From assembly GCF_005145025.1 (NCBI RefSeq), contig NZ_CP039695.1:1483501-1547500 (forward strand): 64,000 nt of DNA, read 5' to 3'. A program made the translations under genes and the position numbers. Shown here in pieces: positions 13,273 to 54,755 of this stretch. The stretch comes from Novosphingobium sp. EMRT-2 (GTDB taxonomy: Bacteria > Pseudomonadota > Alphaproteobacteria > Sphingomonadales > Sphingomonadaceae). Below the pieces are notes generated by a model. That model ran no database searches and had not been told where the DNA came from. It saw nothing but the letters and a program-made list of their open reading frames with translations. Each line of letters opens with the position of its first letter. Position 1 is the stretch's first letter.

Positions 13273-13833
13273 CTAGATCAGCGCCCGCCCGAGCAACCCT
13301 ATCGGCGCAATCAGACCGCAGGCCAGAATAACCGCGCAGCCGGTCCCACCAGCACCATTCGAGGACGGTCCAGCCGTATCGACCTCTCCATTCTCCGCCT
13401 GCCGCTTCATCTCCCTGATCACATTGTCGATCTTGCTCTTTGCCTCACCGAATAGATCGAGTGCCACCACCTGTCCGCCACGGACGTTCTGCTTTGCGGT
13501 GCCAGACACTTCGAACAGGTACGGCGACACCTCATTGTAGATGATTGTGCCGCTGACCCCGGTCCATGACCCCATTGTCATGCCCGTGGTGAAGGTGATG
13601 GTGCCGGAGGCCTCGTCGACCGCGTCAACGCGATAGTTCGACGCCTGCACGGCAGACTTGCACAGAGCCACCATCATTTCGCGCGTTGCACTAAAACGCC
13701 CGTCAACGAATGAGGGACGGTCCGGGGCCGTAGCCGTCTCTTCTCCGACCACGACAGGGGCACCGCATCCTGGGCAGGTTGCCGCCTGGTCCGAAATGTC
13801 ACGATTGCATTCAGAGCATTTGATGAGCGCCAT
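13273..13833 (-). CDS. Zinc-ribbon membrane-associated hypothetical protein
   Basis: 186 residues from ATG 13833 (MALIKCSECNRDISDQAATCPGCGAP). The N-terminal CxxC...CxxC motif is a zinc ribbon of the double-Cys type. A middle beta-rich domain (SGTITFTTGMTMGSWTGVSGTIIYNEVSP) follows, and the C-terminus is hydrophobic (GTGCAVILACGLIAPIGLLG), a likely single membrane anchor. Such zinc-ribbon-plus-TM proteins are common and uncharacterised. It sits in a run of minus-strand envelope-type genes. Confidence 0.6.
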   Translation of the reverse strand: MALIKCSECNRDISDQAATCPGCGAPVVVGEETATAPDRPSFVDGRFSATREMMVALCKSAVQASNYRVDAVDEASGTITFTTGMTMGSWTGVSGTIIYNEVSPYLFEVSGTAKQNVRGGQVVALDLFGEAKSKIDNVIREMKRQAENGEVDTAGPSSNGAGGTGCAVILACGLIAPIGLLGRALI

Positions 13834-39167: not shown

Positions 39168-39656
39168 CTACGCCGTGGCTTCCACAGACAACGGCAGGGC
39201 GGTTTCGTACTTCACCGCGCGCAAGGCGAAATGGGAAGAGGCCGCGCCCACCGACGGGTGCTTGAGCAGCACGCGCATCAGGAACGCCTCGTAATCCCGG
39301 ACATCGCGCGCCACCACGCGGATCATGTAGTCCCATTCGCCGGACATCGAATAGCATTCCATCATCCGGGGCTGATCGCGCACGAACGTCTCGAACGCTT
39401 CCACGCTCTCCGTCTGATGGCCCTTGAGCCGGACGTTACAGATCACGTTGACGCCCTGCCCCAGCCGTTCGGGGTCGGCCAGCCACACCGGCTTGTGCAG
39501 AACTCCCGCATCCTCAAGCTGCTTCACCCGTCGCCAGCACGATGGCGCGGTGCTGCCGACGCGCTGCGCGAGATCGGTGTTCGACAGCGCGCCATCGCGC
39601 TGAAGTTCCGTGACGATGCGCCGGTCGAGTGCGTCCAGGTCGAGCGATTCTTTCAT
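39168..39656 (-). CDS. Lrp/AsnC-family transcriptional regulator
   Basis: 162 residues. An N-terminal HTH (LDALDRRIVTELQRDGALSNTDLAQRVGSTAPSCWRRVKQLEDAGVL) precedes a RAM/AsnC effector-binding domain (MMECYSMSGEWDYMIRVVARD). ATG 39656 is preferred over a GTG three codons upstream. It diverges from phenylalanine hydroxylase, 92 bases apart, so it is a likely phenylalanine- or tyrosine-responsive regulator of that gene. Confidence 0.9.
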   Translation of the reverse strand: MKESLDLDALDRRIVTELQRDGALSNTDLAQRVGSTAPSCWRRVKQLEDAGVLHKPVWLADPERLGQGVNVICNVRLKGHQTESVEAFETFVRDQPRMMECYSMSGEWDYMIRVVARDVRDYEAFLMRVLLKHPSVGAASSHFALRAVKYETALPLSVEATA

Positions 39657-39748
39657 AATTTCCACGATTGCGAAATTCTATCTCACATATCGCACGATGC
39701 GCCTGCATTTTGAACAGGAATTGCACGCGCGTTGTGCGATCATGCGGC

Positions 39749-40714: not shown

Positions 40715-43111
40715 TCAGAACTTCTTGTTCACCGTCACCGCGAATTCGCGTGGCCGGCCGACGTTCGAATAGGCCGTGCCGGCGGACGACGCGAGCGCCT
40801 GGAACCGCAACGGCAGGTAGTAATACTTGTCGAACAGGTTCTGCGCTTCCACCGAAATCGACAGATCCTCGTTTGCGTTCCGCCAGGTGATGCGAGCATT
40901 GGCCAGCGTGTAGGACGGGTTGTAATCCAGCGGCCCGAAGTTACCGCCGCCCAGCGCGAGGCGCCCGATCGTCTGCTTGCCCACATGCGACAGGTCGATG
41001 CGCGGCGTGATGGAACCGGAAGAACCGAGATCGGCGCGGTACTGCACGCCAAGGCTCCACCGCCACTTCGGCGTGGTGATCGGATCGGCCAGACGGATCG
41101 ATCCGCCCACCGTCGGCCCGATGCGCGACCACGAGCCGTCGATGTAGCTGAGCGAACCATCGATATCGAGACCGGGGATCGGGCTTGCGCTCAGTTCGGC
41201 CTCGGCGCCCGCCATATGCCCGTCACCCGCGTTCTGGATCGCCGCGCAGGGGAACGGATCGGTTCCCACGGCAAAACCATCAAGCAGCGAACAGTCGCCG
41301 ATCGGCAGCTGGATATTCTTGTAGTCGTTGTAGAAGCCGGAAAGGTTCAGGCGCAGCTTGCGGTCGAACAGATCGGTCTTCAGGCCGCCTTCGTAAGCGG
41401 TCAGCGTTTCCGGCGTGAAGGTACCGTTCTTCGCCTGCGCCTTGGTGAACGGACGCGCGGTCACACCGCCGCCCTTGAAACCGGTGCTGACGGTCGCATA
41501 GGCCAAAACTTGCGGGCTGAAGCGATAGTCGACCGAAATACGCCAGTCGACCTTGTGGCCATCGTACTTGGCAACCGAACCATCCAGCGCGCCGACACCG
41601 AAGATATCGACCAGCGGACCGCCGCTCCAGTTCTTGCGAACGAAGGTGTAGTCCTTGTGCTCCTTGGTGTAGCGCAGACCACCGGTGATCGTCAGCCCTT
41701 CGACGGGCCGGACGATGACCGTACCGAACGCCGCCTTGCTGTTGGCGTTGACCGGATCGTTGCCCAGGAACTGCAGGAACAACGGCGGCGCGCCATGGCC
41801 GATATAGCGGATGTCCTGCCGGGTGAAGTAGATCGACTGCTGGTCGTTGTAATAGCCACCCAGGGTCCAGTCGACCATATCGCCGATCTTGCCGTTAAGG
41901 CGCAGTTCCTGGCTGAAGAAGCGGAAGCGCAGATCGTTGAAGCCGGCGCCGCCAATGAGCGGATCGGGCGTGTAATCGTCATCGGTGCCAAACTGTTCGC
42001 GATATTTGCGATAGGCCGTGATCGACTGGATCTTCAGCGAATCGTTCAGCGAAATGTTCAAATTGCTGGAAACGCCCCAGCCCGTGAACTTCGTGGTGTT
42101 GGGCATGGTATAGGCTTGCGCGGCCTGCCCGCCAGCCGGAAGGTAGAAACTGGCATAGGTGCAATAGCGGCCGCAGGTAAAATCGATCCCGTCCGATTTC
42201 GCAGGGTTGGAATAGGACAGCACACCCGCCGCGTTGGTGCGGTTTTCGTAGGTGTAATCGCCGGTCACCGTCCAGTCGATCGTGTCGTTGGGATTGTAAC
42301 GCAGTGACCCGCGCAGACCCGAATAGTTCTTCTCGCCAAGCTTGGCGACAACGCAGTTCGACGGCGTGGAGGCATTGCCGGCGATACCGAGGGCATTGCC
42401 CGGCTTCGCACAGCCATAGTCAATCTGACTGACATAGCCGTCCTGGCGCTTGAACACCCCGGAAACGCGGGCATAGAGCCCCTCGGCAAGCTTGAAATTG
42501 GCACTTCCGCGCAGATCGATGCGGTTGCGGGAACCATAGGCCGCCTCGACCGAGCCGCTGTTTTCCGCGGCGGGCTTGGCCGAGAACAACTTGATCGCGC
42601 CACCGATGGAGTTCCGGCCCGTCAGCGTTCCCTGCGGACCACGCAGCACTTCCACGCGATCCAGGTCCAGCAAGTCCATGACGCTGCCGGTCAGGGTCGC
42701 GAAATAGACGTCATCGACGTAGATGCCGACGCCCGGTTCGTAGGCGGGGTTGAAGTCATACTGGCCGATGCCGCGAATGTAGGCCGCCATCGACGATCCG
42801 AAGGCCCCGCCCATCTGCGTCAGCTGGACGTTGGGCGCCTGGGCCGCGATCTGGGAAATATCCGTCTGGTTGCGTGCTTCCAGAAGCTTGGAATCGACCG
42901 CCGTGATCGACAACGGGGTATCCTGCAAGCGTTGCGACCGGAACTGCGCCGTCACCACGATTTCCCGCGACGCGGCGGATTCATCCGCTGATGATTGTGC
43001 CTGCGCGGCTTCCTGCGCGAAGGCGGGCATGGCGAGACCAAACGCCAGCGCCGCGGCACTTCCCGCGGAAAAAAGACGCACGATTCCTGCAGTACGGTTG
43101 GCGATTGCCAT
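40715..43111 (-). CDS. TonB-dependent receptor of the MarR regulon
   Basis: 798 residues. Signal peptide (VRLFSAGSAAALAFGLAMPAFA), a TonB-box-like region (REIVVTAQFRSQRLQDTPLSITAV), plug (YIRGIGQYDF, YVDDVYFATL, EVLRGPQGTLTGRNSIGGAIKL) and a 22-strand-type barrel ending REFAVTVNKKF. It belongs to the class common in sphingomonads that imports aromatic compounds, including lignin-derived dimers. Operator A lies 44 bases upstream and a further half site (TGTTAGTAT) lies at 43,123. Confidence 0.93.
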   Translation of the reverse strand: MAIANRTAGIVRLFSAGSAAALAFGLAMPAFAQEAAQAQSSADESAASREIVVTAQFRSQRLQDTPLSITAVDSKLLEARNQTDISQIAAQAPNVQLTQMGGAFGSSMAAYIRGIGQYDFNPAYEPGVGIYVDDVYFATLTGSVMDLLDLDRVEVLRGPQGTLTGRNSIGGAIKLFSAKPAAENSGSVEAAYGSRNRIDLRGSANFKLAEGLYARVSGVFKRQDGYVSQIDYGCAKPGNALGIAGNASTPSNCVVAKLGEKNYSGLRGSLRYNPNDTIDWTVTGDYTYENRTNAAGVLSYSNPAKSDGIDFTCGRYCTYASFYLPAGGQAAQAYTMPNTTKFTGWGVSSNLNISLNDSLKIQSITAYRKYREQFGTDDDYTPDPLIGGAGFNDLRFRFFSQELRLNGKIGDMVDWTLGGYYNDQQSIYFTRQDIRYIGHGAPPLFLQFLGNDPVNANSKAAFGTVIVRPVEGLTITGGLRYTKEHKDYTFVRKNWSGGPLVDIFGVGALDGSVAKYDGHKVDWRISVDYRFSPQVLAYATVSTGFKGGGVTARPFTKAQAKNGTFTPETLTAYEGGLKTDLFDRKLRLNLSGFYNDYKNIQLPIGDCSLLDGFAVGTDPFPCAAIQNAGDGHMAGAEAELSASPIPGLDIDGSLSYIDGSWSRIGPTVGGSIRLADPITTPKWRWSLGVQYRADLGSSGSITPRIDLSHVGKQTIGRLALGGGNFGPLDYNPSYTLANARITWRNANEDLSISVEAQNLFDKYYYLPLRFQALASSAGTAYSNVGRPREFAVTVNKKF

Positions 43112-43154: not shown

Positions 43155-43173
43155 TTGTTAGTTAGGCATACAA
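43155..43173. promoter_or_regulatory. Operator A of the MarR regulon
   Basis: TTGTTAG-TTAGG-CATACAA, an inverted repeat between the TonB receptor (start 43,111, minus) and the MarR gene (start 43,306, plus). Matches three other copies in the cluster. Likely bound by the MarR protein, with autoregulation. Confidence 0.75.
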
Positions 43174-43305
43174 ACTTACTCATGGCAAGCGCTTCCTGCA
43201 CCATGCCGCAGCAAAAACCGCGCTGATGCACAAAAGCCACAAGAACTCTGCCCGCTTGGCGCCCGCCTCTTGCCGTACGCGCCGGGTGCGGCGATAGGAA
43301 ACGCC

Positions 43306-43797
43306 ATGACTTCCATGGCTTCCGCCCCCACCGATCCCCAGACCGACGGCAACGAAAACGTCGCCCTGCTGATCGACCTGCTGAAGCTCGCCACCTTCAT
43401 CGCCGGTCCGATGCGCGAAGGCGTGGCGGAGCCGCTCGCACTGAGTGCCACCGACCTGCGCCTGATCCTCGCGCTCGGCGGCGAAGGCGAACTGGCTGGG
43501 CACGACCTGTCCGAAATCATGGGAGTGCCTCCCATGAATGTCAGCCGCGCGCTGGCCAGCCTGCTGGAACGCGGCCTTGTCGAATCCGGCAGCGATCCGG
43601 CGAACCGGCGCCGAAAACCTTTCCGGCTGAGCGCGCGAGGGCAGGCTGTTTTTGCCGACACGCTGCCCGCCATGGCGAACGTGGGCGGAGCCCTTTTCGC
43701 CGATCTCGGCAAGGCGGAGCGCGCGGCGTTCGGCCAGGCCATGCAGGCCGTGCTGGCGCGCATTCCGGCCTGGATGGATCGTCACGGACCCGCCTGA
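43306..43797 (+). CDS. MarR-family repressor
   Basis: 163 residues from ATG 43306 with AGGAA upstream. The winged helix spans about 45-120: LALSATDLRLILALGGEGELAGHDLSEIMGVPPMNVSRALASLLERGLVESGSDPANRRRKPFRLSARGQAVFA. Dimeric MarR proteins release DNA on binding small aromatic ligands. Four matching inverted repeats sit within 6 kb. It is the only regulator in the 40.7-49.4 kb cluster, so it is the likely binder. Confidence 0.9.
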   Translation: MTSMASAPTDPQTDGNENVALLIDLLKLATFIAGPMREGVAEPLALSATDLRLILALGGEGELAGHDLSEIMGVPPMNVSRALASLLERGLVESGSDPANRRRKPFRLSARGQAVFADTLPAMANVGGALFADLGKAERAAFGQAMQAVLARIPAWMDRHGPA

Positions 43798-43816
43798 CGA
43801 TCGATCCCAACGCGCG

Positions 43817-44512
43817 TCATGATGTCGCCTTGCTGGCCAGCACCGCGCCAAAGCGGGGATGGGCGAAGTGCATCGGCACATCATGGCGGTGTGGCCATGT
43901 CTGGCGGATTTCCGCGCTGCGGATTTCATCCGGGCCGAACGGATTTTCGGGATAGCATTCGGTCAAGGGCTGTAGATGCGCGGTGGTCTTCGACCAGCCG
44001 GCTTCGTATTCGCCCTGCCACTGCATCATGTAGTCCAGCCGCTTGATCTTCCACACGCCATCTTCGCGCACGTAATCGTTCTCGTAGATCCCCGCTTCCA
44101 TAAATTGGAGCGGCAGACCTTCCGGCTTGAAGGCGCGTGTTTCGTGGCTGCCGCCAAACAGCATGCCGCGGAACCGGCCCTTTGCGGTTTGCCGGTCGGG
44201 CGCGACGGTGATGATGTCCTGCATCTGGAAATGATCGAGCAGGAAGCCATAGGCCGGCGCTTCCTCGCCCGGGGCCAGGAACAAGCTTCGGAACCAGGTG
44301 CCATAGAGCCGGCGGGCGCCTTCGCGGCCCCGGTAGATGCCCGACAGGAAGATCACCTCGCCATCCTCGGCAAAAAGCTCGGCCACGTCGTCGGCCCGGT
44401 TGAAGTCGATGTAATAGCCATAGGCCCAGTGCAAGCGGCGGATGGCGTTCACGTCCTCCAGCAGCCCCAAGCGGTTTTCCAGCGCCTCCAGGCGGGCGGA
44501 AACGTCCGTCAT
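43817..44512 (-). CDS. NTF2-like (SnoaL/LdpA-type) protein, candidate diarylpropane lyase
   Basis: 231 residues from ATG 44512. The NTF2-like fold is indicated by LEDVNAIRRLHWAYGYYIDFNRADDVAELFAEDGEVIFL and a C-terminal EAGIYENDYVREDGVWKIKRLDYMMQW. Members of the family dehydrate or cyclise, and sphingomonad LdpA, a cofactorless deformylating lyase of lignin diarylpropanes, is one of them. It shares operator B with the SDR and lies 2 kb from a lignostilbene dioxygenase, the enzyme that follows LdpA. The LdpA-like role is inferred from neighbours; aldehyde or sugar substrates of other SnoaL enzymes remain possible. Confidence 0.7.
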   Translation of the reverse strand: MTDVSARLEALENRLGLLEDVNAIRRLHWAYGYYIDFNRADDVAELFAEDGEVIFLSGIYRGREGARRLYGTWFRSLFLAPGEEAPAYGFLLDHFQMQDIITVAPDRQTAKGRFRGMLFGGSHETRAFKPEGLPLQFMEAGIYENDYVREDGVWKIKRLDYMMQWQGEYEAGWSKTTAHLQPLTECYPENPFGPDEIRSAEIRQTWPHRHDVPMHFAHPRFGAVLASKATS

Positions 44513-44535
44513 TTCTACTCTCCCAATTCCAATTT

Positions 44536-44554
44536 TTGTATGTAACACTAACAA
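44536..44554. promoter_or_regulatory. Operator B of the MarR regulon
   Basis: TTGTATG-TAACA-CTAACAA, in the divergent promoter between the NTF2-like gene (44,512) and the SDR (44,588), so one site can control both. Reverse complement aligns with operator A over the whole length apart from the 5-base spacer. Confidence 0.78.
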
Positions 44555-44587
44555 TAACAAGCGAGAGAACCATTGCGAGAGGAAAAC

Positions 44588-45525
44588 ATGGCGGCTGCAA
44601 AAAAAGACGGTTCGGAGTGGTCCGGCCAGGTCGCCTTCGTGACGGGGGTGTCACCGGGATCGGTCTTGGCGTGGCGCAGGCGCTTAGCGATGCCGGCCTG
44701 CGGCTGGCGCTCAGCTATCGCAACGAGGCCCATCGCGAACAGACCGCGCGCTGGTTTGCCGACAACGGGCGGGAACCGCCGCTGTTCGTGCCGCTGGATG
44801 TGACCGACCGTACCGGCTTCGCCGAAGCGGCCGAGTCGGTGGAACGGCATTTCGGCGCGGTGCACGTGCTGGTGAACAACGCCGGCGTCAGCGTGTTCGG
44901 ACCCACCGACGAGGCGAGCTATGCCGACTACGACTGGATCATGGGCGTCAATTTCGGCGGCGTGGTCAACGGACTGGTCAGCTTCCTGCCCGGGATCAAG
45001 GCGGCCGAGGGACCGCGTCACGTCGTCAACATCGCCTCGATGGCGGCCTTCCTGCCGGGGCCGCAAGCCGGCATCTACACCGCCAGCAAGTTCGCCGTGC
45101 GCGGCCTGACCGAATCGCTGCGCTACAACCTAGCCCCCCACGGCATCGGCTGTTCGCTGTGCTGCCCGGCGCTAACCCGGACCAACGCATGGGATTCGGC
45201 GCTCAAGCGCCCGGACACTTTCGCCGACAGCGGTTTTGCGCCCGTTGCCCGGGCGGAGCTGGAGCAGTTCGGGACGGCTTTCGAGGCGGGGATGGACCCA
45301 TACGAAGTCGGCCGCAAGGTGTTCGCGGGCATGGTCGAAGACAGGGCGCTTATCCTCACGCATCCCGAGTTCCGCGAGGATTTCGAGGAAATCTTCCGGG
45401 ACAGCGTGGCCGCCCTGCCCGACGAGGAAGCGCCGCCCGCCCGTCGGGAAATCGAACGCCTGCGGCGCGAGGCAAACAAGGCGGCAAAGGCCGGCCGGAT
45501 CATCGGTCTTTCCGATCTCACCTGA
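44588..45525 (+). pseudogene. Short-chain dehydrogenase/reductase with single-base frameshift
   Basis: The N-terminus in one frame is MAAAKKDGSEWSGQVAFVTG, then a second frame provides GVTGIGLGVAQALSDAGLRLALSYRN. Restoring one G in the G run at 44,644-44,648 would give the normal TGGVTGIGLG cofactor motif. Downstream the gene is intact: NNAGVSVFG, Ser in VVNIASMAAFL, YTASK catalytic Tyr-Lys. A classical SDR would oxidise or reduce the alcohol side chain of a lignin-type dimer, though the substrate is unknown. Either the gene is broken or the homopolymer is a sequencing error. Confidence 0.8.
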
Positions 45526-45596
45526 CGGCCATCGGTTGCGCCACGCGGCTTCGTCGCTATCCTCGCGATCGGCGGGGATTTCACGGAGAGATGACG

Positions 45597-46478
45597 ATGT
45601 GCGATCAGGATACCGAAGCCGATAACCAAAGCTGGCTGGCGTTGAACCGCCGCCAATTCACCGCCCTGGGGGCGGGCGCGGCAGCTATGACCATCGTACC
45701 CGGCTGCATGGCCCAGACGCGTGATGGCGCGGGCGCGATGAAGGTAGCCAGCCGCGCAGTGACGATCACCACGCCTGACGGAAAGGCCGATGCCTTCTTC
45801 GTCCACCCCGAAGGCGGCAAGCATCCCGCCGTGATCATGTGGCCGGATATCGCCGGCCTGCGCGACGCCTACAGGACCATGGGCACGCGGCTGGCCGAAG
45901 CGGGCTACGCTGTGCTCGTTGTCAACCAGTATTACCGCTCCAGCCCGGCGCCGATTCTCAACAGCCTGTCGGAATGGCGCTCACCCGAAGGGCAGCAAAA
46001 GCTGGCGCCGATGATCGCGGCGATCACACCGGCGGGAACCGTGCGGGATGCCGCCGCTTTCGTCGCCTGGCTGGACGGGCAGTCGGAAGTGGACACGGGG
46101 CGGAAGATCGGCACCTGCGGCTATTGCATGGGCGGACCGTTCACCGTCCGCACCGCGCTGGCCAATTCCGCACGGGTCGGCGCGGCGGCCTCGTTCCATG
46201 GCGCCAGCCTGGTCAACGACACGCCCGACAGCCCGCACAAGCTGCTCGCGCAGACTCAGGCGGCCTACCTCTTCGCGATCGCGCAGAACGATGACGCACG
46301 CGCGCCCGACGACAAGGTCCGGCTGCGCGAAGCGGCGGATGCTGCGAAGCGGCCCGCCGAGATCGAAGTCTATCCCGCCCAGCACGGCTGGTGCACGATC
46401 GACGCGCCGATCTACGACAAGGCGCAGGCCGAGAAGGCCTGGGGCCGCATGCTGGCGCTATACACACAGTATCTCTGA
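45597..46478 (+). CDS. Tat-exported dienelactone hydrolase-family protein
   Basis: 293 residues. A twin-arginine leader (LNRRQFTALGAGAAAMTIVPGCMA) precedes the DLH domain, with catalytic Cys in CGYCMGG, Asp in AQNDDARAPDDK and His in PAQHGWC. The family hydrolyses dienelactones or related esters. ATG 45597 is preferred because GGAGAG is six bases upstream. It is 71 bases after the SDR and probably in its operon; its partner substrate is likely periplasmic. Confidence 0.87.
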   Translation: MCDQDTEADNQSWLALNRRQFTALGAGAAAMTIVPGCMAQTRDGAGAMKVASRAVTITTPDGKADAFFVHPEGGKHPAVIMWPDIAGLRDAYRTMGTRLAEAGYAVLVVNQYYRSSPAPILNSLSEWRSPEGQQKLAPMIAAITPAGTVRDAAAFVAWLDGQSEVDTGRKIGTCGYCMGGPFTVRTALANSARVGAAASFHGASLVNDTPDSPHKLLAQTQAAYLFAIAQNDDARAPDDKVRLREAADAAKRPAEIEVYPAQHGWCTIDAPIYDKAQAEKAWGRMLALYTQYL

Positions 46479-46527
46479 CGGGTCCGTCAGACGGAAATGC
46501 TGCGCGCGGTGTGGCGCAGCATTTCCG
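46475..46527. terminator. Two tandem hairpins between convergent genes
   Basis: CTGACGG-GT-CCGTCAG (46,475-46,490) overlaps the hydrolase stop. CGGAAATGCTGCGC / GCGCAGCATTTCCG (46,492-46,527) is a perfect 14-bp stem with an eight-base loop. No T-tract follows, so a bidirectional or Rho-assisted terminator is likely. Confidence 0.65.
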
Positions 46528-46570
46528 CAATTCCCAAGATCATCTTGCTGCCCGGCGATGACGATGCGCG

Positions 46571-48052
46571 TCACGCCACCGCATCCAGTTGCGCCTGCGG
46601 CACCCACCAGCCGTGCACTTGCGGACGCAACCGGGCGGGTATCGCCACTTTCGCCACCGGCCCCGCCGCAAGGTTGCCGGCATCGACTACCCAGGCCTCG
46701 TGCACGAAGCTGTTGTCGCCAACCTGCCGGTCCACGATCATGATCAGCCATCCATCGTGCCCCGGGTCCTTCGCCGGCACGTGCACTGGCTCGTTATAGC
46801 CGGCCTGCGGCGGCAGGGGCAGCGCCTGCGAGACGTGCGGCGCGGCCGTGTCCATCCCGTCCAGACGGACCAGCAGGTTGAAGCTGACCCCCACCGGCCC
46901 GGCGAACAGCGGCGGCCCCTGCAACGCGGGATTCATCGACAGCATCCAGCCGTGGCCATAGCGGCGCCCCTGTTTCGCGGCGGGGATCACCGGGAAATCG
47001 CCCGGTGGCCCGATGATGGTTTCGGTCACTTCGCCGCTCTCCGCCTTGGGATCGACGGTCCAGCGGGTCAGCGCACCCTGGACCTCCTGCGGCGCCATGA
47101 AGATGCCCGATGGTTCGCGGATGAACGCGAAGGCGTTGGTGTTGTTCAGGCACGCATCGAAATGCAGCAGGCCGTTCTCGTCCTCCCACGCGTTCATCAT
47201 GTGGTAGGAGTGGCACCCCTCCGGTCCCTTGAACCACCGAATTTCCGATACGTCGCCATAGCGCGGCATCACGCCCAGCCAGGACGCGAGTTCCGGTTCG
47301 TGGTGCCAGTGCTCGCCCCCGGCCTTGATGCGATCCAGATCGGCCGTCGTCGGATAGATCGGGAACAGCGCATAGTTCTCACTGATCGTGAAATCGTGCA
47401 TCATCGCGCAGTAGGGCGCATCGAACCACTGCTCCGACTTCAGCACGCCATCAGGGCCGACAATGCAGTAGGCGACTTTCGGCGATGCAAGGCCGTCCGC
47501 CTCGTAGCCATAGAAGAACAGTTCGCCGGTCCCGGCATCGATCCGCACGTGGGCGGTCATGGTCTCGGACTTCAGCGCGCCGTCGAAATCATGCGAGCCG
47601 ATGGTTTCGAGCGTGCGGGGATCGACGCGATAGGGGCGCCCATCCTCCTTCGCCATGAGCAGGCGGCCAGCGTGCCAGACCGGCGTGGTGTTGGCGACGG
47701 TGCGGTCGATCCCGCGCACGTCCTCGTCATCGGTATAGGGGTTGCGGTATTTGCCGAAGCGCGCGCGGCCCCGTTCCTTCTCCGCCCTGTGCCGCGCCGT
47801 TTCCACGAACCGGATCGCAAAATCGGCCGTGCCGTCCGCGTTGAACGACAGGCGGCTGACCATGCCATCGCCCGACAGCGTGTGATCGTCGGCGAACTTG
47901 GGCGGAAAGGCCGGATCGGGAACCGCGCGGAAGAAGCTGCCGTGCACTTCGGCCGGCAGCGTGCCCTCCACGGCCAATCCCTTCAGGTCAACGTCCTGGC
48001 CAACCGGTTCGTTCAGGCCGGTGAAATACGGAGTCTGCGGAAAAGCGCCCAT
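46571..48052 (-). CDS. Carotenoid cleavage oxygenase family, lignostilbene-alpha,beta-dioxygenase type
   Basis: 493 residues, the length of LSD enzymes. The four iron His are in TAHVRID (H168), MMHDFTISE (H219), CHSYHMMNAWED (H284) and VHGWWVP (about H480). From memory of LSD-I of Sphingomonas TMY1009, the phenol-binding Tyr101 and Lys134 match Tyr102 (GKYRNP) and Lys135 (LMAKEDG). This supports cleavage of 4-hydroxystilbenes, such as lignostilbene, to two aldehydes. No signal peptide. Operator C lies 19 bases before the ATG. Confidence 0.88.
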   Translation of the reverse strand: MGAFPQTPYFTGLNEPVGQDVDLKGLAVEGTLPAEVHGSFFRAVPDPAFPPKFADDHTLSGDGMVSRLSFNADGTADFAIRFVETARHRAEKERGRARFGKYRNPYTDDEDVRGIDRTVANTTPVWHAGRLLMAKEDGRPYRVDPRTLETIGSHDFDGALKSETMTAHVRIDAGTGELFFYGYEADGLASPKVAYCIVGPDGVLKSEQWFDAPYCAMMHDFTISENYALFPIYPTTADLDRIKAGGEHWHHEPELASWLGVMPRYGDVSEIRWFKGPEGCHSYHMMNAWEDENGLLHFDACLNNTNAFAFIREPSGIFMAPQEVQGALTRWTVDPKAESGEVTETIIGPPGDFPVIPAAKQGRRYGHGWMLSMNPALQGPPLFAGPVGVSFNLLVRLDGMDTAAPHVSQALPLPPQAGYNEPVHVPAKDPGHDGWLIMIVDRQVGDNSFVHEAWVVDAGNLAAGPVAKVAIPARLRPQVHGWWVPQAQLDAVA

Positions 48053-48070
48053 CGATCCTCATCCTACCAA

Positions 48071-48089
48071 TTGTTATTATTTCATACAG
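48071..48089. promoter_or_regulatory. Operator C of the MarR regulon
   Basis: TTGTTAT-TATTT-CATACAG, 19 bases before the dioxygenase ATG. It agrees with operators A, B and D. This gives the dioxygenase its own controlled promoter in a 449-bp intergenic stretch (48,053-48,501) that otherwise has no gene. Confidence 0.72.
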
Positions 48090-48188
48090 GCCGGCGCGTC
48101 CGATGCCAACCGATTCCGCAAGGGCGCGGCGCGATTTGAAACGGAGGAAGGTGCAGCATTGCCGCATTTCGCCAGGGCCAAAACGGAA

Positions 48189-48220
48189 AGGACCGCCGCC
48201 GCAAATGCGACGACGGTCCT
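48189..48220 (-). terminator. Terminator after the CmcJ-like gene
   Basis: Read on the minus strand, AGGACCG / CGGTCCT with an extended imperfect inner stem, followed by TTTCCGTTTT. It would separate the CmcJ-like transcript from the dioxygenase. Confidence 0.6.
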
Positions 48221-48501
48221 GGAAGCTGCCTTCCCGCTGGGCGGGTAAATCGGCCTCCTCTCCAACCGATCAGAAGTCCGTCCCTAAACGCCTGTGGCTG
48301 ACCAAATGTTCGCACAGCGATGTGAAACAGGGAGCGACAAACAGGTTGTGGACTTCAAACGAAACGGACTGCGACTCCTTGCATTCCCGACTGCTCGCAA
48401 GCGAAGTTTATCGCGAAAATAGCCTCCTAGGCGGTACGACGCAATCACTGTTGCAAAGCAGGTGCCACGGGGTGCCGCAATTGCACCACCGGCGAACGGG
48501 A

Positions 48502-49290
48502 TCACGCCCACCACCAGGCCGTTGCGCGCATCTCTATGCTGACCCGGGCCGGCGCATCCGCCGGGCAATCGGGCAGGTCAAACGCCACGTGGGGAACGTG
48601 ATGCGCCCGATCCTCATCCGTATCGTTGGTCTTGAACAGGATCGCCTCGTCCCGCATCAGCGCGGGGAAATAGTGCCAGCGATGCGCGGCATTGTGCGCA
48701 ATCACCAGCCCTTCGAACGACCATTCCGGCTTGCCCTCCTCGTCGAACACGGCATCGGCTTCGATCAGGTCTTCCAGCGCCAGCGTGCGGGCATCGCACA
48801 GGGCCAGCGGCACGTCCTGCGGCGGCGGGGACAGCGCGCGCCATACGTTGTAATGCGCGCAGCGCAGGAACGGCCGGCCCGCCGCCCCGCGTTCGCCGAA
48901 CAGCGCGGCGGTCCTGTCCGAAATGTCGATATGCGCGAAGCGCGCCGGCATGGAATTGTTGAGGCTGCCCGCCCTGCCCGATCGTTCGCTGAAGCGCAGC
49001 AAGCCGGGGCTGCCGACGTGGACATGATCCGCCCCGGTCACATGGCGGACCAGTTCCACGATCTCGTGCATGTGCAGTGAAACGACCTGTTCGCGGTCTG
49101 TGAAATCGGAAACGGCGCTGCGATGGGTGACGAGTTGGAAGCCCTCGCGATCGATCGTTGTCCCGATGGCGCGCGCATCGTGCAAGGGCATGGGCACCGG
49201 CGAAATATCCACCTCGTCCCGCTCGTGCGCGTTGGCATAGTAGCGCGGGCGTGCGAAGCGGCGACCCGAATAGGCGATGAGCGCTTCCAT
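48502..49290 (-). CDS. CmcJ/NvfI-family (GA4-desaturase-like) protein
   Basis: 262 residues. It has the family pattern SRRFARPRYYANAHERDEVDISPVPMPLHDAR near the N-terminus, EIVELVRHVTGADHVHVG, RFAHIDISDRTAALF, and WRALSPPPQDVPLALCDARTL...HNAAHRWHYFPALMRDEAILFKTND. Members (CmcJ of cephamycin synthesis and related fungal proteins) are thought to be oxygenase- or isomerase-like, and bacterial homologues are often labelled 'methyltransferase' without proof. It is in the MarR regulon (operator D, 61 bases upstream), so a role on the imported aromatic is likely, but the reaction is unknown. Confidence 0.75.
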   Translation of the reverse strand: MEALIAYSGRRFARPRYYANAHERDEVDISPVPMPLHDARAIGTTIDREGFQLVTHRSAVSDFTDREQVVSLHMHEIVELVRHVTGADHVHVGSPGLLRFSERSGRAGSLNNSMPARFAHIDISDRTAALFGERGAAGRPFLRCAHYNVWRALSPPPQDVPLALCDARTLALEDLIEADAVFDEEGKPEWSFEGLVIAHNAAHRWHYFPALMRDEAILFKTNDTDEDRAHHVPHVAFDLPDCPADAPARVSIEMRATAWWWA

Positions 49291-49350
49291 CGATGCATCC
49301 TTCTCCTGCGCCCGCCGCTACCGCCGGACGATCCGGAGAAAAGACCACAA

Positions 49351-49369
49351 TTGTTAGTATTGCAAACAG
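49351..49369. promoter_or_regulatory. Operator D of the MarR regulon
   Basis: TTGTTAG-TATTG-CAAACAG, 61 bases upstream of the CmcJ-like gene. It is also close to the ligC terminator, which separates this regulon from the lig operon. Confidence 0.72.
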
Positions 49370-50429: not shown

Positions 50430-52715
<2,286 letters not shown>

Positions 52716-53592: not shown

Positions 53593-53606
53593 GCATAAAT
53601 TTATGC
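53593..53606. promoter_or_regulatory. Palindromic operator upstream of the ligJ operon
   Basis: GCATAAATTTATGC, a perfect 14-bp palindrome, 56-69 bases before the DUF1932 gene ATG and touching the LysR stop codon. A near copy precedes ligK. Confidence 0.68.
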
Positions 53607-54755
53607 GAAACCCGCCTCCGCAACCTCGTGCAGCAGCGTGACGAACGCGGCCTGCGGCGCGGTGGGCCGCCAACCCTGACGGGTGGTGATCCCGATCGTG
53701 CGCGTGACCGGAACCGGCGGCGGCCGCATCGCTAGCACACCGGCATCCAGTTCCACCGCGAGCTGCGCCGGCGACAGCAGCGTCAGCGCATCGCTTCCCC
53801 GCAGCAGCTGGCGCACGGTCAGCACCGATCCGCATTCGATCCCGACATGCGGCGGGTCCGCCCCCACCGCGCGCATCATCGCTTCCCAGTAATGGCGCAA
53901 CGGCGTGTCGCGCCCCGACAATATCCAGGGATAGGCGGTCATCGCCGCGCCATCGACCGTGGGCAGCGCCAGCAGCGGATGGCCCGCGCGCATCACCAGC
54001 GCGGGGCGATCCTCGAACACCGCTTCCTGTTCCAGATCGTCGAGCAGGGCCGCCTCGCGCAGCGCGCCCAGCATCAGGTCGATCTCGCCATCGCGCAGCG
54101 GGCCGGCGAGCTCGGCATGACTGCCTTCCACCACCGCGACATCCACCCCCGGCCAGTCGCGCACGAAGCGCAGCATCGTTTCCGGCAGCCAGCGCGCGCG
54201 CGAAAGCGGCATCGCCCCCACCACGATGCGCCCCGCCGCCTTGCCCTGCCAGGCCGCCACTTCGGCAAGGCCCGCGCGCAGTTCCGCCATGGCGAGGCCG
54301 AACCCGCGCGCGCGCCGCTCCCCAGCCGGCGTCAGCATCACCGAACGGCCGCGCCGGTCAACCAGCCGCTGCCCCAGCGCGACGGCCAGATCGGCCACGG
54401 CCCGGTGCAGCGAGGCGGTGGAAAGCCCGGTCTCCTCGGCCGCGACGGCATAGCTTCCCGCCCGAGCCAGCGCCAGGAACGCGCGCATCTGCGTGCCGGT
54501 CACACGCGGGGAACCGATGTGCGCAAGCGCCGCATCGGCGCGCGGCGCCAGCAGCAGCGCGGGTTCCGTCGGGGTCATGCCAGCCGCGCCGCGCTCGAAC
54601 AGCGCGCAGCCGAGGTCCGCCTCCAGCCGCGCGATCGCCTGTGTCAGCGCAGGCTGCGTCAGATTGATGGCGCGCGCCGCGCGGGTCACGCTGCCGTGCC
54701 GCACCGTTGCCGCCAGCGCAGCGAAGTGCCGGATATTGAGAGGCCGCTCGCTCAT
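53601..54755 (-). CDS. ligR: LysR-type regulator of the lig operons, with two HTH domains
   Basis: 384 residues, about 80 longer than a standard LTTR. The extra length is a second winged helix: HTH-1 about 7-64 (MSERPLNIRHFAALAATVRHGSVTRAARAINL) and HTH-2 about 88-146 (MRAFLALARAGSYAVAAEETGLSTASLHRA). The effector domain (about 165-375) begins GRIVVGAMPLSRARWLP. It is divergent from ligK and convergent with nothing, lying between the two lig operons, the classic LigR position. Assignment as ligR rests on location. Confidence 0.8.
   Translation of the reverse strand: MSERPLNIRHFAALAATVRHGSVTRAARAINLTQPALTQAIARLEADLGCALFERGAAGMTPTEPALLLAPRADAALAHIGSPRVTGTQMRAFLALARAGSYAVAAEETGLSTASLHRAVADLAVALGQRLVDRRGRSVMLTPAGERRARGFGLAMAELRAGLAEVAAWQGKAAGRIVVGAMPLSRARWLPETMLRFVRDWPGVDVAVVEGSHAELAGPLRDGEIDLMLGALREAALLDDLEQEAVFEDRPALVMRAGHPLLALPTVDGAAMTAYPWILSGRDTPLRHYWEAMMRAVGADPPHVGIECGSVLTVRQLLRGSDALTLLSPAQLAVELDAGVLAMRPPPVPVTRTIGITTRQGWRPTAPQAAFVTLLHEVAEAGFA

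Follow-up and report, generated by a model that had tools for sequence, protein, structure and literature searches.

Which regulator reads the 19-bp inverted repeat TTGTWWG-N5-CWWACAA that recurs in a putative lignin-dimer gene cluster of Novosphingobium sp. EMRT-2? The question was raised by a 64,000-nucleotide stretch of contig NZ_CP039695.1 (positions 1,483,501 to 1,547,500; here called the window), in which an earlier note described four copies of the repeat and proposed that they define the regulon of a single repressor, the MarR-type protein encoded among them (the local MarR). Our analysis points elsewhere: it is fairly probable that the 19-bp repeat (the box) is the operator class of a MarR of the DesR/Saro_0803 type, represented in the source genome by the gene at C1:1849974, and that the window is one branch of a genome-wide lignin regulon. 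This type of MarR was judged the likeliest reader because the core of the box fits the DesR operators, the box overlaps the repeat of the nov1 promoter, the two regulators appear to be orthologous, and a published ligE mutation falls within the box.

The inverted repeats of the window

The consensus was scored as the full 19-bp TTGTWWG-N5-CWWACAA and as its 15-bp core GTWWG-N5-CWWAC, both with W-containing half-sites. All four sequences of the earlier note were found at their positions, and the measured gaps to the start codons, 18-60 bp, agree with the 19-61 bases claimed; as copies of one motif, however, they are unequal. Box 1 (43155..43173, TTGTTAGTTAGGCATACAA), between the TonB receptor and local MarR genes, and box 2 (44536..44554, TTGTATGTAACACTAACAA), between the LdpA-like and SDR genes, have no mismatch, and the 19-mer of box 2 is found again, identical, upstream of LigF at C1:647533. 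Site 4 (49351..49369), upstream of the CmcJ-like gene, differs at one outer base and has an intact core. Site 3 (48071..48089), before the gene for the stilbene dioxygenase NOV2, has two mismatches and a broken core, one half-site reading GTTAT instead of GTWWG, with the G missing; the core therefore fits exactly at sites 1, 2 and 4 but not at site 3. The gaps are 43 bp to the TonB receptor start, 23 bp to the NTF2-like (LdpA-like) start (ATG 44512), 33 bp to the SDR start (ATG 44588), 18 bp to the stilbene dioxygenase start and 60 bp to the CmcJ-like start. With up to two mismatches the window contained five matches, the fifth lying within an open reading frame at 13819, against 0.25 expected, and none of 100 shuffles reached five. 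These counts, with nine exact copies against no reversed ones genome-wide, speak against a motif that is as frequent by chance.

Site conservation was followed in relatives selected for carrying the local MarR (15 of the 49 that have it). Boxes 1 and 2, the second upstream of the LdpA-like gene, each recurred in all 15 related clusters with up to two mismatches, and the reversed control pattern gave two matches in total over the same 15 loci. Among 13 relatives examined, site 4 was kept in two (G080 and G015) and site 3 in none, so that the idea of one motif beside the same genes in relatives holds for boxes 1 and 2, barely for site 4 and not for site 3. Given these recurrences and the broken core at site 3, sites 1 and 2 are, on the sequence evidence, firm operator-like elements and site 4 is a lineage-specific one; site 3 is doubtful, and probably not part of the 19-bp box set.

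The box across the genome and the genus

The source genome (4.77 Mb) contains nine exact boxes, two of them in the window and seven outside, and no exact copy of the reversed pattern. At up to two mismatches the genome-wide numbers are 29 forward and 21 reversed; because reversed matches are nearly as common at that level, two-mismatch sites were weighed only at promoters orthologous to ones with a better box. The own-genome stretches that were read (357,015 bases, picked because they contain sites) held 9, 8 and 12 matches at zero, one and two mismatches, respectively, and none of the reversed pattern.

Across the genus, the exact box was present in 60 of 149 genomes and the reversed pattern in 0 of 149. 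Upstream of genes for LigF-family GSTs in the named genomes, a box lay within 250 bp, at up to two mismatches, in 51 of 80 loci (80 kept of 92) vs none of the 80 for the reversed pattern. Promoters of the same kinds have the box in other genomes, though several boxes there matched none of the reference genes; in this cross-genome matching, queries such as LigM and LigE also catch paralogues, and identities for MFS proteins are unreliable. The repeat is a genuine operator-like element under conservation, and its binder is likely a MarR-type repressor.

Relation of the box to DesR, Saro_0803 and ligE

DesR of Sphingobium sp. SYK-6, a MarR-type repressor, has been reported to bind the repeats IR-B, IR-M and IR-R (PMC6888825). 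All three fit GTWWG-N5-CWWAC. Among 397 genomes of the family, 16 match GTTTGTGTNACATAC; IR-B and IR-M occur together in genomes G337 and G576, and G337 holds all three DesR operator strings. In both of these genomes IR-R adjoins a MarR gene that is divergent from a NOV1 homologue, and the encoded MarR is 61-62% identical, over the matched part, to the Saro_0803-type MarR of the source genome. When aligned, the G337 MarR is 57% identical to the source genome's MarR at C1:1849974 and 54% identical to that of G149, and the recognition-helix core MDRATTMAI is common to the three. The C1:1849974 MarR exceeds the cut-off of the Saro_0803 equivalog NCBIfam NF053777 (238 bits against 200); its gene, which has an exact box of its own, lies some 0.32 Mb away from the window and is divergent from that of a lignostilbene dioxygenase. 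Given 54-57% identity, a shared helix core and a divergent NOV1-type gene beside each, DesR and Saro_0803 are, judging from their sequences, very probably orthologues.

The repeat GCAATA------TATTGC of the nov1 promoter has been reported to overlap the -10 box, which is also occupied by the 22-bp core bound by Saro_0803 (PMC10046596). We infer that this core contains the 19-bp box. Searched with a gap of seven, the nov1 repeat was found in 32 of the 195 genomes of the genus; of the matches listed, G149 has the sole one to overlap a 19-bp box, and it lies beside NOV1 and Saro_0803. The third contig of G149 (C3) corresponds to N. aromaticivorans pNL2 (100% over 3019 bases). A mutation 55 bp upstream of ligE, within an inverted repeat, was reported to increase LigE about 1000-fold on glucose (PMC11837543). 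In G149 the ligE box has one mismatch and spans -58 to -40, and the published mutation falls on box position 4, counting back from the start codon. The hpvY up-mutation of the same study, 49 bp upstream of SARO_RS19130, has no box, the best match there having five mismatches.

Distribution of the box and of candidate readers

Of the 149 genus genomes, 49 have the local MarR and 60 the Saro_0803 type. A third MarR, encoded at C1:3624273-3624788 in the source genome, was detected in six at E 1e-20, three of which matched at only 34-35% identity. The exact box was present in 44 of the 45 genomes with both the local MarR and the Saro_0803 type, in all four with the local MarR only (48 of the 49 with a local MarR), in 11 of the 15 with the Saro_0803 type but no local MarR, among which G096, G106 and G107 match at only 41-44% identity, and in one of the 85 with neither regulator, a genome 78% complete. 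Since the two MarRs are about equally good predictors of the box and the genomes are related, these counts alone do not name the reader.

In the stretches fetched from the 15 Saro_0803-only genomes, a box at up to two mismatches was found in 14, vs three for the reversed pattern, and boxes in these genomes stood, among other places, at LigM/PurU, FolD, formate dehydrogenase, NOV1 and TonB receptor/CmcJ promoters. The TonB receptor/CmcJ boxes are exact in G002, G056, G132 and G142, and G096 has a box between LdpA and SDR genes with two outer mismatches and an intact core. At Saro_0803-type loci a box was nearby in at least 27 of 30; the other three (L143-L145), for which the stretch counted was too short, also have one next to them. 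One contig, G112:C10 (L243, L389), encodes a Saro_0803-type MarR with no nov1 match within the surrounding 20 kb; G112 retains exact boxes at LigM/PurU, at FolD, at formate dehydrogenase and at a TonB receptor.

Boxes with TAG-type half-sites were present in 48 of the 49 genomes with a local MarR vs four of the 15 Saro_0803-only genomes. Sorting TAG-type and ATG/TTG-type boxes by reader was nevertheless rejected, as half-sites interchange at orthologous promoters; the LigF box, for instance, is of the TAG type in G105 and ATG/ATG in G139.

Weighing the candidate readers

Support is strongest for the DesR/Saro_0803 type as reader, because relatives have been shown to bind the core or the promoter, and because boxes persist where the local MarR is missing. 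Several observations weigh against it. The published ligand of Saro_0803 is resveratrol, at 0.5-2 mM, not vanillate (PMC10046596). Four genomes (G018, G074, G086 and G141, 52-94% complete) have the box and the local MarR, with no Saro_0803 type detected. As half-site variants interchange at orthologous promoters, boxes are not assignable to a reader by their sequence. In the SYK-6-like genome the ldpA/SDR site is degenerate (two mismatches) and no box was found ahead of the lsdA homologue, which means that this branch need not be under DesR there. The ligE box of the source genome is likewise degenerate (two mismatches, C1:989065). Finally, the co-occurrence of the box with the local MarR (48 of 49 genomes, 29 of 30 loci) is unexplained by an account with DesR alone.

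It is on this last point that the local MarR has its strongest claim. The 163-residue protein (43306..43797, plus strand) has a MarR winged-helix domain above the Pfam cut-off (PF12802, 40.5 bits against 27). It had no match to NF053777 at E 0.001, shares 12-15% identity with the DesR/Saro_0803 regulators and has a different recognition helix, and membership of that family was ruled out on the first two counts. It might still repress the window boxes, in which case the DesR/Saro_0803 type would read no more than the vanillate and one-carbon boxes at other places. A box at up to two mismatches lies upstream of its orthologue in 29 of 30 loci vs one of 30 for the reversed pattern (30 loci returned, out of the 49 genomes), the exact box is near-universal in its genomes, boxes 1 and 2 are kept in 15 of 15 clusters, and G337 and G576, with no match to it in the roughly 80 kb covered of each, have a degenerate ldpA box and a boxless lsdA homologue. 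Against this, exact TonB receptor/CmcJ boxes persist in G002, G056, G132 and G142, and an LdpA/SDR box in G096, all lacking the local MarR, and its recognition helix is unlike that of DesR. In addition, the gene has a putative promoter (CTTGCC ... GCGATA) of its own directly before the ATG, separate from box 1; because of this, and because box 1 is nearer to the receptor gene, box 1 seems directed at the TonB receptor. The box lies 51-157 bp upstream of the matched local MarR gene starts. We regard exclusive control of the window boxes by the local MarR as unlikely, although it may be a second reader of the box. The earlier proposal of one repressor for all units thus keeps its MarR-type binder and the close association with the local MarR, and loses its confinement to the cluster, as the box is genome-wide; that the cluster MarR defines the regulon is not supported, given the exact boxes in 11 of the 15 Saro_0803-only genomes and a core that is the published DesR operator.

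A broader idea, which we hold only tentatively, is that two or three unlike MarRs (the DesR/Saro_0803 type, the local MarR and the C1:3624273-3624788 protein) converge on one 19-bp operator, each of the three having an exact box at its own gene. In sphingomonads that assimilate lignin, such an arrangement would be a multi-input switch for the joint activation of uptake, dimer cleavage, O-demethylation, one-carbon disposal and possibly glutathione recycling. In G147, G044 and G075 (L257, L260 and L278), the local-MarR orthologue is encoded within about 4 kb of a Saro_0803-type MarR.

Site 3 is overlapped by a different, compact inverted repeat of the form TAAC-N4-GTTA, which is degenerate in the window (48040-48075, two mismatches). 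NOV2, and sometimes CmcJ, might be controlled through this repeat as the true operator of the local MarR, with the 19-bp boxes left to the DesR type. A TAACAA-N2-G-N-TA block stands directly before the NOV2 start in 13 of 14 genomes, as counted by eye; CTAAC-N4-GTTAG occurs with at most one mismatch at NOV2 in six of 15 relative loci and at CmcJ in two (G077 and G098), and none was seen in the lsdA upstream stretches of SYK-6-like genomes. On the other side, besides its degeneracy here, the compact 14-mer is not enriched in the own-genome loci (0 at up to one mismatch vs 13 reversed in the 357,015 bases), and it may be a mere promoter element; we consider this explanation improbable. That the repeats are AT-rich promoter palindromes which arose by chance is the least credible of all: site 3 behaves so, and the two-mismatch totals of 29 and 21 would allow it, but the exact counts (9 vs 0 in the source genome, 60 vs 0 among 149 genomes) and the GST loci (51 vs 0 of 80) refute it for sites 1 and 2.

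Genes of the cluster and of the other box loci

The window cluster looks like the beta-1 lignin-dimer branch adjoining ring-cleavage genes, a prediction from protein families and from literature in which ldpA, lsdA (NOV2) and lig genes are named (PMC12997858, PMC11323797). Encoded on the minus strand are the TonB-dependent receptor (40715..43111; Pfam PF00593, PF07715), the NTF2/SnoaL-like, LdpA-like putative gamma-formaldehyde lyase (43817..44512; PF13577; PDB 8abt, E=2.8e-102), named LdpA-like from gene neighbourhood and literature passages, the lignostilbene dioxygenase NOV2/LsdA (46571..48052; NCBIfam NF053780, 850.5 bits against a cut-off of 650), the CmcJ/NvfI-family oxidoreductase (48502..49290; NCBIfam NF041278, 256 bits against 80) and the beta subunit of a class III extradiol ring-cleavage dioxygenase of the LigB type (50430..51278; PF02900; NCBIfam NF009903). 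The plus strand carries, besides the local MarR gene, those for an SDR-family dehydrogenase (44588..45525; PF00106) and a dienelactone-hydrolase family protein (45591..46478; PF01738). The ATG of the SDR gene (44588) and its conserved body are in different frames, with an apparent break near a G run at about 44645 that may reflect either a genuine frameshift or an error in sequencing; homologues in relatives align only from residue 16-29. The local MarR is the only regulator between the sites, as had been noted, but Lrp/AsnC-type (39168-39665) and LysR-type (53601-54755) regulator genes flank them.

Elsewhere in the source genome, exact or one-mismatch boxes neighbour genes for LigF (PDB 4xt0, E=4.8e-104) with a GFA protein, the vanillate demethylase LigM (PDB 5x1i, E=1.4e-254) with PurU, FolD, a formate dehydrogenase gamma-like subunit (top-scoring model, short of its curated cut-off), a lignostilbene dioxygenase (NF053778) with the Saro_0803-type MarR, an NTF2-like protein, an MFS transporter/SDR pair and a LigF-family GST (L010:18347-19126; PDB 4xt0). 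A LigE-like identity for this GST was rejected on the PDB 4xt0 match, and LigE proper is encoded at L019:7135-7977 (NF042997; PDB 4yam). A GMC identity for another gene was also rejected, the product being an AMP-binding enzyme. Another TonB receptor gene, at C1:182437, has a one-mismatch box. Two tandem boxes 44 bp apart (L013:8827-8889; C1:3624826 and C1:3624870), one exact and the other with one mismatch, precede the gene for the third MarR, behind which lies one for a TonB receptor; the exact box there is kept in G080 and G015. One-mismatch boxes also stand at the gene for the glycine-cleavage T protein GcvT (L014:7764, C1:490763) and before that for a pyridine-nucleotide disulphide oxidoreductase, perhaps glutathione reductase (L016:7651, C1:3469650); these two would fit the one-carbon and glutathione needs of the pathway. 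Other sites suit this picture less well, that at C1:3383333 preceding the gene for a protein that has no Pfam match.

Predicted working of the regulon

With the DesR/Saro_0803-type MarR as reader, the regulon would cover the use of lignin-derived methoxylated aromatics, including their uptake across the outer membrane. LdpA-like deformylation would give a stilbene to be cleaved by NOV2; beta-ether cleavage and O-demethylation by LigM would also belong to it, and the methyl carbon would be disposed of through tetrahydrofolate (PurU, FolD) and formate dehydrogenase. When substrate is absent, a dimeric repressor would occupy the box, close to the promoter or start, including, by prediction, the sites of the window, and an aromatic ligand, perhaps vanillate or syringate by analogy with DesR, would release it. 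The local MarR might add a second input on the same box. Genes for handling lignin fragments and their methyl groups would thereby be kept off until substrate arrives, in many relatives as well as in this strain.

N. aromaticivorans grows slowly on a lignin dimer, which has been ascribed to misregulation (PMC11837543). A DesR/Saro_0803 operator at ligF, ligE, ldpA, ligM, the tetrahydrofolate genes and formate dehydrogenase would offer a candidate regulator for it, and the box would account for the location of the mutation behind the roughly 1000-fold rise in LigE. Two regulators studied separately, one as a vanillate/syringate sensor and the other as a resveratrol biosensor, would be joined as close relatives, and deregulating the regulon could aid lignin conversion.

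Comparison with known systems

The DesR regulon of SYK-6 (PMC6888825) resembles the present system in its MarR repressor, the same 15-bp core, ligM as a target and a divergent lignostilbene dioxygenase gene. Its targets known from publication are ligM, desB and desR, whereas the box here is also found at ligF, ldpA/SDR, the nov1-type gene, MFS/SDR, TonB receptors, folD, purU and formate dehydrogenase. Saro_0803 of N. aromaticivorans (PMC10046596) belongs to the same NCBIfam equivalog as the C1:1849974 MarR, and its published repeat overlaps the G149 box; it has been described as a resveratrol sensor at one promoter, while here nov1 would be a single site among the many in a lignin regulon under a close relative of DesR. 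In that paper the word DesR appears only among the references. The evolved ligE repeat of N. aromaticivorans (PMC11837543) has its gain-of-expression mutation inside the box; however, the portion available names no regulator, and the co-mutated hpvY is boxless. The beta-1 dimer pathway of ldpA and lsdA (PMC12997858) is matched by the LdpA-like, NOV2/LsdA and LigAB-type genes standing together in the window, but the available passages name LigR, of the LysR type, and do not mention a MarR.

In titles and the openings of abstracts, subscription journals lying outside the search, neither a genome-wide DesR/Saro_0803 regulon nor the kinship of DesR and Saro_0803 was found described. Taken together, what is known is the biochemistry of single promoters; what is new greatly extends a regulon of a known kind, and does not amount to a new kind of system.

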